Source: a bacterium (GTDB taxonomy: Bacteria > RBG-13-66-14). Taken from it: a DNA stretch of 23,645 nucleotides. This document shows positions 3,572 to 10,359 of this stretch, piece after piece. The first letter of the stretch is position 1. Each line of letters begins with the position of its first letter. The translations under genes were made by a program, and so were the position numbers. The DNA is taken from the NCBI GenBank assembly GCA_035528375.1, contig DATKYS010000064.1:1-23645 (forward strand), in the 5' to 3' direction. Below the pieces are notes generated by a model. It searched no databases and was not told the origin of the DNA. It saw nothing but the letters and a program-made list of their open reading frames with translations.

Positions 3572-6556
3572 ATGACCGACAAGACTATTCCCTCAAAGTA
3601 CGACCAGACGGAGATCGAGTCCCGCTGGTACTCCCATTGGGAGCGGGAGGGGCATTTCCGTCTCAACGAGAACGCCCCGGGGCCGGTGTTCACCGTGGTC
3701 ATCCCGCCGCCCAACATCACCGGCTCCCTGCACATGGGCCACGCCCTGAACAACACCATCCAGGACATCACCGTCCGCTTCAAGCGGATGCAGGGTTGCA
3801 AGGTCCTCTGGCAGCCGGGCACCGACCACGCCGGCATCGCCACCCAGAACAAGGTCGAGCAGGCGCTGGCCGCCGAGGGGCTGACCCGGCACGACCTGGG
3901 GCGGGAGGCCTTCATCGCCCGCTGCTGGGCCTGGCGCGAGCAGTACGGCCGCGAAATCGTCGAGCAGTTGAGGATTCTGGGTTGCTCCTGCGACTGGGAG
4001 CGGGAGCGCTTCACCATGGACGAGGGGCTCAACCGGGCGGTGCGCACCGCCTTCAAGGCGTACTACGACGCGGGGATGATCTACCGCGGCGTGCGCATGG
4101 TCAACTGGTGCACCCGCTGCCATACCTCCATCTCCGACCTCGAGGTGGAGTACGAGGACCAGAGCTCCCACCTGTGGTATGTACGCTACGGGGGCCTCGT
4201 CGTGGCCACCACGCGGCCGGAGACGATGCTGGGCGACACGGCGGTGGCGGTCCATCCCGAGGACGAGCGGTACGAATCCTTCATCGGCAAAGAGGTGGAC
4301 CTGCCGCTCACCGGACGGCGCATCCCGGTCATCGCCGACGAGCGCGTGGACCCCGCCTTCGGCACCGGGGCGGTGAAGGTGACCCCGGCCCACGACCCCA
4401 ACGACCACGAGATGGCCGGGCGTCACGGCTTGGCGAGCGTGGTGGTCATAGACTTCGAGGGAAGGATGACCGCCGACGCAGGGGCCGGTTACGCGGGGCT
4501 CGGCGTCCTGGAATGCCGGAAAAAAGTGGTCGCCGACCTCGATAAGTTGGGCCTCCTGGAAAAAACCGAGGATTACTCACACTCGGTGGGCACCTGCTAC
4601 CGCTGCCACGAGACCATCGAGCCGCTGGTGAGCGAGCAGTGGTGGATGGACATGAGCCCCCTGAAGGAGCCCGCCATCCGTGTCGTGGAGCGGGGCGAGG
4701 TGAAGTTCATCCCCGAGCGCTGGACCAAGGTCTACCTCGACTGGATGGAGAACCTGCGGGACTGGAACATAGGCCGCCAGCTCTGGTGGGGCCACCGGAT
4801 GCCGCTCTGGCACTGCGACGCCTGCGGCGGAATCGTGGTGGAGATAGAAACGCCCGAGCGGTGCCCTGAATGCGGCGGAGCCCTGCGCCAGGATGAGGAT
4901 GTCCTGGACACCTGGTTCTCCTCGGCGCTCTGGCCGCTCTCGACCCTGGGCTGGCCCGACGACGAGGAGCAGTTGAAGAGACTCTACCCCACCGCCGTCC
5001 TCTCCACCGCGCCGGACATCATCTACCTCTGGGTGGCGCGGATGATTATGAGCGGTATGCACTTCCGCGGGGAGAAACCCTTCAGCCACGTGTACCTCCA
5101 CGCCACCGTCCTGGCCCAGGACGGCCGGCGGATGAGCAAATCCCTGGGGACCGGCGTGGACCCGCGCGAGGTCATCGGCGATTACGGAACCGACGCCCTG
5201 CGCTTCACCCTGGTCATTCTCACCGGCCAGGGGCAGTCGGTGCGGCTGTGGGAGGACCGCTTCACCGTGGGGCGGAATTTTGCCAACAAGGTCTGGAACG
5301 CCGCCCGCTTTCTCCAGCTCAACCTCGCCGGGAGCCGCCTCGCCGACGAGGCTCCGCTCACCACCGGGGAGCTGCCCGACGACCGCGAGCTCACCCTGGA
5401 GGACCGCTGGGTCATCTCCAAGCTGGGCCGGCTCGCCGGGGAGGTGACCGACGCGCTGGAAGCGTACCGCTTCAACGAGGCGGCGCACCTCGTATACGAG
5501 GCCTTCTGGCACGACTACTGCGACTGGTACCTGGAGCTCGTCAAGCCGCGCCTCTACGGCGACGACCCCAAGGCCAAGGGGGTGGCGCTCGCGGTGGCGC
5601 TCCACGGGATGCGCCTGCTGTTGAAGCTCCTGCACCCGATCATGCCCTTCATCACCGAGGAGCTTTTCCACCGCCTGTTCCCCAACGCGCCCGCGGACCT
5701 CATGGTCTCGCCCTGGGAGGACCACGAGGACTGGCCGGGGTACGCGGGGGACGAGGAGCACGTGGAGCGGCTGCAGAAGCTGATAGACGCCGTGCGCAAC
5801 ATCCGGGGCGAGATGGGAGTCCCGCCCGGGGCCAAGGTCAAGCTCCTGGTGAAGACCACCGACGGCGACCTGGCCGCCCTGGTCGAGGCCCAGGCAGGCT
5901 TCTTCGCAAATCTGGCCGGCGTGGTGGAAATCGAGGCCGGTCCGGAGGTGGTCAAGCCCAGGGGGGCCGCCGTGGGCGTGGAGGGCGACGTGGAGCTCTA
6001 CGTGCCGCTGGCCGGGGTGGTGGACTTCACCGCCGAGCTGGAGCGCGTGAAAAAGGAGCTGGGGAAGGTCCGCGAGCGGTTGTCCAAAGTCGAGAAGAAG
6101 CTGGCCGACGCCCAGTTCAGGCAAAAGGCCCCCGCCGAGGTCGTCAGGGGTGAAGAGGAGAAGCGGGACCGGCTGGCGGCCGAGCTCGAGGCACTGGAAC
6201 GGCACCTGCGGCAGGTGGAGGAGATGCTCTGGATGAGCACCGATGACCTTTTCGATGGGGTGCTCAAGAAGATTCCTGAATTAGCTCAAGAGCACCTGGG
6301 TGGTTTTCTGAATGAAGCCCTCGCGGATTCACGTCAGTTCTGCGAGGAGATACGGGGGAGGCTGGATAAATGGGTGGGCCAGTACCAACGGGGCGAGCTC
6401 AACCGGGAGGAGTTCGAGTGGCTGTTGAAGAGCCTGAAATCCCTCGCCCAAGGCCAACTTCTCAGTGAGGCCGGTATTGGCCAGGTCAGAGCACAGAATT
6501 TCTTCGAAGGTGTACTCAAGCTTATGATCAGGATTGCTATCGCCACGATGTTATAA
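3572..6556 (+). CDS. valS: Valyl-tRNA synthetase with an in-frame C-terminal fusion to a 107-residue module
   Basis: 994 residues. Residues 1 to about 887 are a complete class Ia valyl-tRNA synthetase, charging tRNA-Val with valine in the cytoplasm. Visible are the HIGH-type motif PPNITGSLHMGH (about 46-57), the editing (CP1) domain, Cys pairs of zinc-ribbon type (CDACGG and CPECGG), the KMSKS-type loop RMSKS (520-524), the anticodon-binding domain, and the C-terminal coiled coil (about 815-885). Most bacterial ValRS end there, at roughly 880-950 residues. Here the frame continues from Met888 with 107 residues matching the separate protein at 7140-7463, 77 of 107 identical without gaps. An ATG at 6233 with GGAGGAG upstream could also start this module independently. 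It has its own promoter and is followed by a terminator at 6592. The ValRS call is certain; the role of the extra module is unknown. Confidence 0.96.
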   Translation: MTDKTIPSKYDQTEIESRWYSHWEREGHFRLNENAPGPVFTVVIPPPNITGSLHMGHALNNTIQDITVRFKRMQGCKVLWQPGTDHAGIATQNKVEQALAAEGLTRHDLGREAFIARCWAWREQYGREIVEQLRILGCSCDWERERFTMDEGLNRAVRTAFKAYYDAGMIYRGVRMVNWCTRCHTSISDLEVEYEDQSSHLWYVRYGGLVVATTRPETMLGDTAVAVHPEDERYESFIGKEVDLPLTGRRIPVIADERVDPAFGTGAVKVTPAHDPNDHEMAGRHGLASVVVIDFEGRMTADAGAGYAGLGVLECRKKVVADLDKLGLLEKTEDYSHSVGTCYRCHETIEPLVSEQWWMDMSPLKEPAIRVVERGEVKFIPERWTKVYLDWMENLRDWNIGRQLWWGHRMPLWHCDACGGIVVEIETPERCPECGGALRQDEDVLDTWFSSALWPLSTLGWPDDEEQLKRLYPTAVLSTAPDIIYLWVARMIMSGMHFRGEKPFSHVYLHATVLAQDGRRMSKSLGTGVDPREVIGDYGTDALRFTLVILTGQGQSVRLWEDRFTVGRNFANKVWNAARFLQLNLAGSRLADEAPLTTGELPDDRELTLEDRWVISKLGRLAGEVTDALEAYRFNEAAHLVYEAFWHDYCDWYLELVKPRLYGDDPKAKGVALAVALHGMRLLLKLLHPIMPFITEELFHRLFPNAPADLMVSPWEDHEDWPGYAGDEEHVERLQKLIDAVRNIRGEMGVPPGAKVKLLVKTTDGDLAALVEAQAGFFANLAGVVEIEAGPEVVKPRGAAVGVEGDVELYVPLAGVVDFTAELERVKKELGKVRERLSKVEKKLADAQFRQKAPAEVVRGEEEKRDRLAAELEALERHLRQVEEMLWMSTDDLFDGVLKKIPELAQEHLGGFLNEALADSRQFCEEIRGRLDKWVGQYQRGELNREEFEWLLKSLKSLAQGQLLSEAGIGQVRAQNFFEGVLKLMIRIAIATML

Positions 6557-6618
6557 CTGAATGGAGATTCGGGTAGCGGGTTTTCGAACAGGGGCGGGTT
6601 TGGTACCCGCCCTTTTTT
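6233..6618 (+). repeat. Duplicated unit copy A: 107-codon module plus terminator, fused to valS (copy B at 7140-7521)
   Basis: Copy A comprises codons 888-994 of valS, the short spacer and the terminator. Copy B is a free-standing gene of identical length with a terminator of nearly the same sequence (GGCGGGT/ACCCGCC stem). Protein identity is about 72 percent, highest in the central stretch GQYQRGELNREE, and the DNA of that stretch is nearly identical. The direct duplication is separated by a lipoprotein gene. In copy A the in-frame Met aligns with the start Met of copy B, so the fusion joins a complete module to the synthetase end, as would happen if the valS stop codon was lost. Confidence 0.9.
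6592..6618 (+). terminator. Rho-independent terminator after valS
   Basis: Perfect stem GGGCGGGT (6592-6599) and ACCCGCCC (6605-6612), five-base loop, then six T (6613-6618). It is closely related in sequence to the terminator at 7499-7521. Confidence 0.93.
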
Positions 6619-6621
6619 ATA

Positions 6622-6650
6622 TTGACAGTCCGTCGGAGGGGTAGTATTTT
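6622..6650 (+). promoter_or_regulatory. Sigma70-type promoter for the lipoprotein / 107-residue gene pair
   Basis: TTGACA at 6622-6627, a 17-base spacer and TATTTT at 6645-6650. It starts four bases after the valS terminator's T tract and points to the gene at 6717. The same terminator-then-promoter layout recurs at 7499-7551. Confidence 0.75.
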
Positions 6651-6716
6651 TATAGCTTCCGTGTAAGTCTTTGTTGGCATGATACTTATAGTCATCACCA
6701 GACAAAAGGAGGAAAG

Positions 6717-7127
6717 ATGCGTCGGTTTTGGATGCTACTGGGCCTGCTGGCTGTAACGGCCGTGCTCACGACGGGATGCGTCCCCGGCGATCCTGCGGCC
6801 CTGGCGGAGGCCAAGCTGCTAAAGGTGGATTCGCTGGAGCTCATGGGGAAGGCCGTGGAGCCTTTCACGGACCACGAAACCGAAGTGGAGGCTCTGACGA
6901 CGCGTCTGAAGGCGGCTCTGGCAGATAACGCCGCCAAGTGCTGCAACGAGACGTTGACTGACCAGTGGCGCATACTGCTCGATACCGAAACGAATCAGTT
7001 GGGCGCGTTTATTGAGCGATGGGAAACCAAAGGCATCCTCGGCGCTACGTTCATCGAGGAAGCCAAGTGGGTGGTTGATAAGAGCTTCGACCAGATCATC
7101 AATGTCGAAGAGGAACGTTGCAAGTGA
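6717..7127 (+). CDS. Small lipoprotein of unknown function
   Basis: 136 residues. The signal peptide ends in lipobox LTTGC (Cys21 acylated). The mature part of about 115 residues is predicted mostly helical and carries an adjacent Cys pair (AKCCNE) and a Cys near the end. No family is recognised. AAGGAGG lies four bases before the ATG, one of the best ribosome binding sites in the window, and a consensus-like promoter lies upstream, so expression may be strong. The next gene, for the 107-residue protein, starts 12 bases after its stop with no terminator between, so the two form an operon. This suggests the envelope lipoprotein and the 107-residue protein work together (inference). Confidence 0.8.
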   Translation: MRRFWMLLGLLAVTAVLTTGCVPGDPAALAEAKLLKVDSLELMGKAVEPFTDHETEVEALTTRLKAALADNAAKCCNETLTDQWRILLDTETNQLGAFIERWETKGILGATFIEEAKWVVDKSFDQIINVEEERCK

Positions 7128-7139
7128 AAGGGGTGAATT

Positions 7140-7463
7140 ATGAGCCTTGAAGAGCTTTTCGAAGAGGTGTTCAAGAAGATTCCCGAATTGGCCCAGGAGT
7201 ACCTGGGAGGTTTTGTTGAAGAAGCCCTCTCGGATTCGAAAAAGTTTTGCATCGAGATCGAAGGGAGGTTGGAGAAATGGTTGGGCCAGTATCAACGGGG
7301 CGAGCTCAACCGGGAGGAGCTCGAGTGGTTGGTGAAAAGCCTTAAATCGCTTGCTCATGGGCAACTCCTCAGTGAAGCCGGCATCGCCCAAGCCAGAACA
7401 CAGAACTTCTTCGAAGGCGTGCTCGAGTTCCTGGTCAAGATCGCCATCACCGCGCTGTTATGA
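7140..7463 (+). CDS. 107-residue protein of unknown function, paralogue of the ValS C-terminal module
   Basis: Free-standing copy of the module fused to ValS. It looks all-helical: an N-terminal charged helix (EELFEEVFKKIPELAQEYLG), a middle region with GQYQRGELNREELEWLVKSL, and a hydrophobic C-terminal helix (about residues 89-107) that could lie on or in a membrane. There is no signal peptide and no recognisable catalytic motif. It is co-transcribed with the preceding lipoprotein and followed by its own terminator. I do not recognise the family. The conservation of length and of the central stretch between the two copies indicates selection on the protein. The ATG is set by alignment with the internal Met of ValS and by GGGG shortly upstream. 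Confidence 0.8.
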   Translation: MSLEELFEEVFKKIPELAQEYLGGFVEEALSDSKKFCIEIEGRLEKWLGQYQRGELNREELEWLVKSLKSLAHGQLLSEAGIAQARTQNFFEGVLEFLVKIAITALL

Positions 7464-7498
7464 CGGAACGAGGTTCGGAAATCAGGCTTTTTCTCAAG

Positions 7499-7521
7499 GG
7501 CGGGTTTGATACCCGCCTTTT
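7499..7521 (+). terminator. Rho-independent terminator after the 107-residue gene
   Basis: Stem GGCGGGT (7499-7505) and ACCCGCC (7511-7517), loop TTGAT, then TTTTG. Its sequence parallels the valS terminator at 6592-6618, as expected for a duplicated gene-plus-terminator unit. Confidence 0.88.
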
Positions 7522-7576: not shown

Positions 7577-8719
7577 GTGAGAGAAGCCTGCGACTTCTTT
7601 ATCAACCCGAGAAACCCGGCGGGGGTGTTGGAATCCCCCGTCGCGCAGTTCTGCTTAGGTGAGGACGCCCTCGACTTCCACCGGAAAATCCCCGGTTACG
7701 CGCCAACGCCGCTCCTCCAATTACCGGGGCTGGCGGCGGAGCTCGGCCTGGCCGCCCTTTACGTCAAGGACGAGGCGCACCGCTTCGGGACCAAGGCCTT
7801 CAAGGCGCTGGGCGCGTCCTACGCCATTCATCGCTACATAGAGGATAATCCCGGCGACCACGTCTTCTGCACCGCCTCGGACGGGAACCACGGCATGGCG
7901 GTGGCGTGGTCGGCGCGGCTGTTCGATCAAAAGGCCGAGGTCTTCATGCCGCGGGGGACCGTTCCGGCCCGCGTCCGGCGCATCGTGGATTTTGGCGCCC
8001 GGGTGACGGTCGTGGACGGCGACTACGACGCCACGGTGCGCACCGCCGCCCGCGAAGCGGAAAAGCGCGGCTGGGTCCTCGTCCAGGACACCGCCTGGGA
8101 GCTTTATGTCGAGATACCGGCCCGCATCATGGCCGGTTACGTCACGATGTTCCGCGAGCTGGAGGAAGAATTATTCCCACCCGGCGGGCCCGGTGTGAAC
8201 GCGGTTTTCCTCCAGGCCGGTGTGGGGAGCTGGGCCGCGGCGGCGGTCGCCTACCTCGCCGGGCGCTACGGCGACCGGATGCCGAAAATCGTCTGCGTGG
8301 AACCGGTGGGGGCGGACTGCTGCCTGGCCTCGGCGCGGGCCGGCCGGCGGGTGAGCCTTCCGGGGGCGGAAACCATCATGGCCGGGCTGAACTGCGGCAC
8401 GCCGTCGCTTTTGGCCTGGCCGATTCTCGCCGCCGGGACGGACCTCTTCCTCACCTTGACCGACGATTACGCCCGCGAGGCGATGCGGGCCTATTTCCTC
8501 CCGTTGGACGGCGACCCGCGTGTCATCTCCGGCGAGTCGGGGGCGGCGGGGCTGGCCGCGCTTTTCGCCCTTCTACGCACCCCGGAATTGGAAGAGCCCA
8601 GGGGATTCCTGGGCCTGGACGCAACTTCGCGGGTCCTTCTCGTCAACACCGAGGGCGACACCGACCCGGCGGGTTTTTCCAAAATCGTCGGCGCCCGGGC
8701 TACCACTCCTCCGGGCTAG
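7577..8719 (+). CDS. dpaL: Diaminopropionate ammonia-lyase (PLP-dependent)
   Basis: 380 residues, close to the roughly 400 of E. coli YgeX/DpaL. This fold-type II PLP enzyme converts 2,3-diaminopropionate to pyruvate and two ammonia in the cytoplasm. Typical family stretches are YVKDEAHRFGTKAFKALG, containing the probable PLP lysine Lys76; TASDGNHGMAVAW; LVQDTAWELYVEIP; FLQAGVGSWAAA; ETIMAGLNCG; and VISGESGAAGL. It starts at a GTG with AAAGGGG seven bases upstream; no better start exists. It has its own promoter and is probably monocistronic. Its last 20 bases overlap the end of the convergent gene at 8700. No partner genes for diaminopropionate uptake or synthesis are in the window. A related threonine-synthase-like activity is less likely given the DpaL-specific motifs. 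Confidence 0.9.
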   Translation: MREACDFFINPRNPAGVLESPVAQFCLGEDALDFHRKIPGYAPTPLLQLPGLAAELGLAALYVKDEAHRFGTKAFKALGASYAIHRYIEDNPGDHVFCTASDGNHGMAVAWSARLFDQKAEVFMPRGTVPARVRRIVDFGARVTVVDGDYDATVRTAAREAEKRGWVLVQDTAWELYVEIPARIMAGYVTMFRELEEELFPPGGPGVNAVFLQAGVGSWAAAAVAYLAGRYGDRMPKIVCVEPVGADCCLASARAGRRVSLPGAETIMAGLNCGTPSLLAWPILAAGTDLFLTLTDDYAREAMRAYFLPLDGDPRVISGESGAAGLAALFALLRTPELEEPRGFLGLDATSRVLLVNTEGDTDPAGFSKIVGARATTPPG

Positions 8720-9909: not shown

Positions 9910-10359
9910 TTAATACCCCAGGTAGTGGAAGTACTCGGTCAGCGATTCGCAGTTGCGGCGCAGCGAGGCGATGAAATACGCCCCCCGCTCGTACTGTCCG
10001 TCCAGGAAGACGGCGATGGTGGTGGACACCTTATCGAAGATGTCGTAGATCAGGTTTTTCAGCGCCGCGTTGACGTCCCCGGGGGTGTCGAGAATCCCGC
10101 GGTCGGTCAAGTCCGCGATCCAGAAGGACAGGTCGGCGTTGAGGCGCTCCAGGAGGTCCTTCGTCCGGGGGAAGAGGGCCAGAATCTCCTCGTCGGTCTT
10201 CTCGGCCACGATTCCGTAGGCGCGGGTGAGGTCGAAGAGCTCGTTGGCGTACCCCCAGAGCACACTCTCGTTGGCCGGCAGCTCGTAGTCATCCGCCTCG
10301 GCGGCCACCGTGGACAGGGCCGCGACGAGGAGAGCGATTGTCAATAGGCGTATTTTCAT
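9910..10359 (-). CDS. Small secreted helical protein of unknown function
   Basis: 149 residues. Signal peptide at residues 1-20 (cleavage probably after VAA/EA). The mature part is predicted helical and rich in acidic and aromatic residues, with a single Cys. No family is recognised. A short segment (LTDRGILDTP) vaguely recalls WETKGILGAT in the lipoprotein at 6717, too little to claim homology. It begins 13 bases after the end of the kinase-phosphatase gene and has no clear ribosome binding site, which suggests translational coupling in the phoH-pgpH-ybeY-dgkA unit. A periplasmic or secreted location is inferred. Confidence 0.75.
   Translation of the reverse strand: MKIRLLTIALLVAALSTVAAEADDYELPANESVLWGYANELFDLTRAYGIVAEKTDEEILALFPRTKDLLERLNADLSFWIADLTDRGILDTPGDVNAALKNLIYDIFDKVSTTIAVFLDGQYERGAYFIASLRRNCESLTEYFHYLGY

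Follow-up and report, generated by a model that had tools for sequence, protein, structure and literature searches.

The window, that is, the whole stretch of 23,645 nucleotides that was analysed, carries a single open frame of 994 amino acids (3572-6556) that joins a valyl-tRNA synthetase (ValRS) gene, valS, to a 107-residue unit that we call module A; this and the features described below lie on the forward strand unless stated otherwise. The valS body covers codons 1-886 (3572..6229) and ends in the canonical coiled-coil arm of the C-terminus (residues 818-881), to which the tRNA-binding arm family PF10458 matches completely. The protein reaches 1119.6 bits with the valine--tRNA ligase model NF004349 (cut-off 704) and 1014.5 bits with TIGR00422 (cut-off 612) and, judged by these profiles, residues 1-886 make up a typical bacterial ValRS. 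No second ValRS was found in the genome of the window, the other matches being related class I synthetases of different specificities. After the arm the frame passes through a TGG codon (Trp887, 6230..6232) directly into the ATG of Met888 at 6233, giving the junction peptide ...QVEEMLWMSTDDLF..., and module A (6233..6556, stop codon included) is followed by a terminator-like hairpin (6590..6614) flagged by a terminator scan. The NCBIfam model NF011492 (PRK14900, 1044 positions) likewise describes bacterial ValRS with a C-terminal extension past the usual arm, but the match of the window protein stops at profile position 893 of 1044 (protein residue 882) and its bit score is below the curated cut-off. 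The extension in the window is thus not homologous to that of NF011492.

Downstream lies a two-gene operon, preceded by a sigma-70-like promoter candidate (TTGACA-17-TATTTT, 6622..6650) recognised solely by its match to the consensus. Its first gene (6717..7127) encodes a lipoprotein of 136 amino acids with the lipobox LTTGC (Cys21), and its second, module B (7140..7463), starts 12 nt after the lipoprotein gene and encodes a free protein of 107 amino acids. A terminator-like inverted repeat (7498..7517), recognised from the sequence and from the alignment of the 3' flanks and unflagged by the terminator scan, follows module B. The next gene (7577..8719) encodes a PLP-dependent enzyme (PF00291) that resembles diaminopropionate ammonia-lyase by inspection, and is referred to here as dpaL. 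Further on, the reverse strand encodes a small exported helical protein of lipoprotein-like size (9910-10359) with no Pfam or PADLOC family.

Module duplication and the missing valS stop

Comparison of modules A and B confirmed by recount what the sequence-only reading had claimed, namely that a 107-residue module runs on in frame from Met888 and aligns without gaps to the gene at 7140, with 77/107 identical residues (72%). At the DNA level 253/321 nucleotides are identical, and the match (E 5.6e-74) is far beyond chance, so that the module was duplicated, as that reading had also proposed. The differences between the copies fall mostly on third codon positions (23/8/37), and the divergence estimates (NG86 dN 0.16, dS 0.70; YN00 0.19 and 0.41, respectively) indicate, together with this pattern, that A and B evolve as coding sequence, although the dN/dS of about 0.23 (NG86) spans both copies and gives no proof of constraint on A alone. 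The 3' flanks, from stop to terminator, are also homologous (56/81 identical; alignment score 69, with no more than 47 in any of 500 shuffles), whereas the 60 nt upstream of the two copies show no homology (score 20, with shuffles reaching 32). The duplicated unit is therefore the module with its terminator, minus the lipoprotein gene. The hairpin after A is homologous to the repeat after B, but to call the two terminators near-identical, as was done at first, is somewhat strong given the identity of the flanks and a scan that flags that of A only.

To define the normal end of valS, the ValRS search covered 20 relatives and the 3' ends of their valS genes were read out. The stop lies exactly at codon 887, just past the arm, in a member of the same genus (G001, TAA) and in two members of the same family (G005 and G006, both TAG), and valS of more distant relatives likewise stops about where the arm ends, bearing out the expectation that the gene normally ends after the coiled coil. 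In G001 a terminator hairpin and a spacer separate the valS stop from the next gene, whereas in the window both are missing ahead of module A. The junction therefore took away or replaced stop, spacer and terminator together, which makes a point mutation not obviously the cause. The suggestion that a duplicated gene lost the valS stop is thus right in that the stop is gone, but it leaves out the disappearance of the spacer and terminator, and the lipoprotein gene was not duplicated. In searches of 386 genomes and one genome collection with a profile of the module, no fusion to ValRS was found in any genome besides that of the window. The normal valS end of G006, with its module relic apart, indicates that the fusion is specific to the species of the window.

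A Shine-Dalgarno-like GGAGGAG (6217..6223) lies within Val-Glu-Glu codons, 9 nt before the ATG of Met888, and had been read as part of a retained internal start. This reading does not hold, given that the motif is VEE coding sequence and that it also occurs in G001 with no gene start behind it; it could be used, but its being there is no evidence of use. Its position would also suit a separate module A gene, with a single wrong base from sequencing or assembly, or a strain variant, at codon 887 and a true TGA stop or a TGATG overlap with translational coupling. Both alternatives are one base away from the assembly (TGA to TGG is one substitution, TGATG one G fewer), and this counts against a fusion, as do the stop at codon 887 in every relative whose valS end is resolved, the congener G002 excepted, and the free state of the module in each other genome where it was found. 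However, the error would require a wrong assembled base, which is uncommon with adequate coverage, and the assembly record gives 100% completeness and 0.28% contamination. We consider a separate gene unlikely, though worth keeping in mind. The fusion itself looks real, species-specific and recent on the present sequence comparison; its usefulness is unproven.

A variable site between valS and dpaL

In G002, of the same genus, the codon TAC stands where the stop is expected and the valS frame continues (L005, about 4081-4117) into an unrelated gene of 177 amino acids without a family (L005 4117-4650). This gene is followed by a gene for a TIR protein (PADLOC TIR-TM, E 5e-47; Pfam TIR_2, E 9e-8), and the pair occupies the interval between valS and dpaL (L005 4117-5376). 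The same 177-aa gene and a homologous TIR gene are found between valS and dpaL of G001 (L026 2080-3340), there behind a normal valS stop. The outer neighbours agree, upstream with an ftsX-like gene (comparison made in G002) and downstream with dpaL and the next gene in both congeners. Since the same flanks enclose different gene content, lipoprotein and module in one case and the 177-aa and TIR genes in the others, the valS-dpaL interval is, by this comparison of gene order, a variable cassette site, with dpaL at its far edge. An in-frame extension of valS into unrelated genes is thus seen in two of the three members of the genus for which the end of valS is resolved; the genomes are few, and the two stop losses may be a coincidence. 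The dpaL-like gene of G002 is truncated, its C-terminal 64 residues alone giving a match (L084 6490-6681).

The more distant G006 informs on the older content of the site. Its valS contig ends in a degraded lipoprotein homologue (pieces 56-57% and 34-35% identical), and another of its contigs opens with a module relic, interrupted by stops and a frameshift, immediately ahead of dpaL. The simplest reading, made across the contig gap, is an ancestral order of valS, lipoprotein, one module and dpaL. Either module of the window is 35-37% identical to the G006 relic; A and B resemble one another much more closely, so their duplication is later than the split from G006. A second cassette site, next to a PHP/polX-like gene, is suggested by a solo distant module in G006 (L086 / L036 1474-1800), and in G004 the same neighbourhood holds a lipoprotein and a small unrelated protein (L038 1477-2304).

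The lipoprotein and module gene pair

Relatives of the module were sought by iterative profile searches of the 386 genomes and the genome collection. The module lies directly behind the lipoprotein gene in four other genomes, as module B does: a Nitrospinae bacterium (L044, L071), an Eisenbacteria bacterium (L045, L074), bacterium AUK196 (L073) and G279 (L056). At the protein level this arrangement, with a homologous lipoprotein gene in front, holds for module B and for the loci of P0007, P0008, P0015 and P0016; module A and the solo members P0005 (G006) and P0009 (G142) have no lipoprotein gene before them. Homology of the lipoproteins was indicated by pairwise E-values of 4.5e-32 (AUK196) and 3.6e-5 (G279) against alignment A4, which already contained P0010, P0011 and P0012. 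A scan of the contig collection with the lipoprotein gave four loci, and the same scan with modules A and B gave no relative. In G004 a homologous lipoprotein gene is followed by a gene for a small protein, which was rejected as a module homologue since a sequence relation was undetectable.

No family for either protein was found in Pfam, NCBIfam or PHROGs, where matches were weak and scattered; those to SHOCT (E 0.04) and RecG_N (E 0.043) were taken as chance. By gene order and sequence homology, the lipoprotein and the helical protein of about 107 residues form a conserved, previously undescribed two-gene operon that has no library entry. The early suggestion that the module is involved with the lipoprotein before copy B gains from this, the lipoprotein being its conserved operon partner in other phyla. 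Our best guess is that the module works in the envelope together with the lipoprotein, as a small helical protein that may self-associate; we read this role from a single clue, the lipoprotein signal of one partner.

A different role would follow if the pair were an anti-phage or stress cassette with a lipoprotein related to Csx23 and the valS-dpaL interval a defence hotspot. The lipoprotein of the window does match the PADLOC Csx23 profile (PDLC01072; E 4.9e-8, reproduced), that of G004 does so at 0.021, both Csx23 and the window protein are small and membrane-associated, and a TIR-TM defence gene in G002 and its homologue in G001 occupy the same site. However, the remaining family lipoproteins give no match to the profile, no type III Cas10, which a Csx23 would need for its supply of cA4, passed the cut-off in the genome of the window, and the solved Csx23 structure was not matched. 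Csx23 of V. cholerae has two transmembrane helices and a beta-grasp domain that binds cA4 (PMC11014256), the helices being N-terminal and the domain cytoplasmic and C-terminal, whereas the window protein has one lipoprotein signal. We thus rejected the lipoprotein as a Csx23, given the lack of Cas10, the different topology and the unmatched structure. Relatives of the lipoprotein or module were not found beyond chance in viral contigs, phages or plasmids (a plasmid match at E 6, to a citrate synthase, was taken as chance), and we regard a defence cassette as improbable.

Probable origin and meaning of the fusion

In an AF2 model built with an 8-row alignment the module is all helical with a mean pLDDT of 90; a model from 2 rows (pLDDT 74) has four helices, the last two of which are merged in the 8-row model, so that the topology of this last pair differs by model. 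Foldseek searches with the two models in two libraries gave no match with E under 0.5, and the top VIA-align score (Z 9.3; a T7 tail protein, designed bundles, phasin) lies in the range common to helical bundles, so no fold was assigned. No signal peptide was seen in the module by inspection. An amphipathic helix closes the module at its C-terminus (moment 0.53 in A), and the best 19-residue hydropathy, found in one segment, is 1.35 in A and 1.53 in B, compared with a transmembrane reference of about 1.6 and with 0.16-1.21 in other family members. The proposal that a hydrophobic C-terminal helix tethers ValRS to a membrane is not supported by these values, since 1.35 is below the reference, the helix is amphipathic and its hydrophobicity is not conserved (down to 0.16); judged by hydropathy, a transmembrane anchor in the module is unlikely.

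ValRS with appended domains are an already known kind of protein. The CAAD domain anchors ValRS of the cyanobacterium Anabaena to thylakoids (PMC4893482), and CAAD ValRS resembles the present protein as a ValRS of few species with an extra non-catalytic helical domain. This precedent, the amphipathic helix and the coding constraint that A shares with B in the pooled dN/dS would fit a functional fusion in which the module brings ValRS to the partner complex of the lipoprotein or to the membrane surface. CAAD, however, is a thylakoid anchor with two transmembrane helices, while the module has none by hydropathy, lies at the extreme C-terminus and has no sequence match to CAAD, for which a Pfam scan with E up to 1 gave no match in the module or in the entire protein. 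Moreover, the fusion occurs in one species only, and the body of the lipoprotein would sit outside the cytoplasm with ValRS inside. We hold such a function to be quite improbable. Very improbable is the further view that ValRS of this lineage gained a partner-binding domain out of a lipoprotein operon, with tRNA-Val charged beside an envelope or defence complex, and that repeated stop loss in the genus samples cassettes (module A; gene X of G002).

We consider it fairly probable that the fusion is real, specific to this species and due to cassette turnover, and that it yields a working ValRS with a folded tail that is mostly a passenger. On this view the site between valS and the dpaL-like gene exchanges its gene content over time, and in the family it originally held a single lipoprotein gene followed by a single module gene. 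In the lineage of the window the module and its terminator were duplicated, and one copy would have been joined to valS, replacing stop, spacer and terminator. No intermediate of this joining was seen among the relatives, and the G006 relics are split over two contigs, which both count against it. The sole ValRS of the genome, presumably made as a single fused product, probably bears a folded helical tail of 107 amino acids and would stay active, because the tRNA-binding arm is complete just before the tail starts. The terminator of module A would be where transcription of valS stops. Module B would stay unfused as partner of the lipoprotein, the two forming a working pair with an envelope role, and the fused copy would be mainly a tolerated passenger of neutral or mild effect.

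The locus offers a near-snapshot of an essential housekeeping enzyme gaining a domain by stop loss beside a site of gene turnover, with a sister species (G002) showing a like stop loss with a different partner. It also brings to light an uncharacterised operon of a lipoprotein and a small helical protein that occurs in several phyla.
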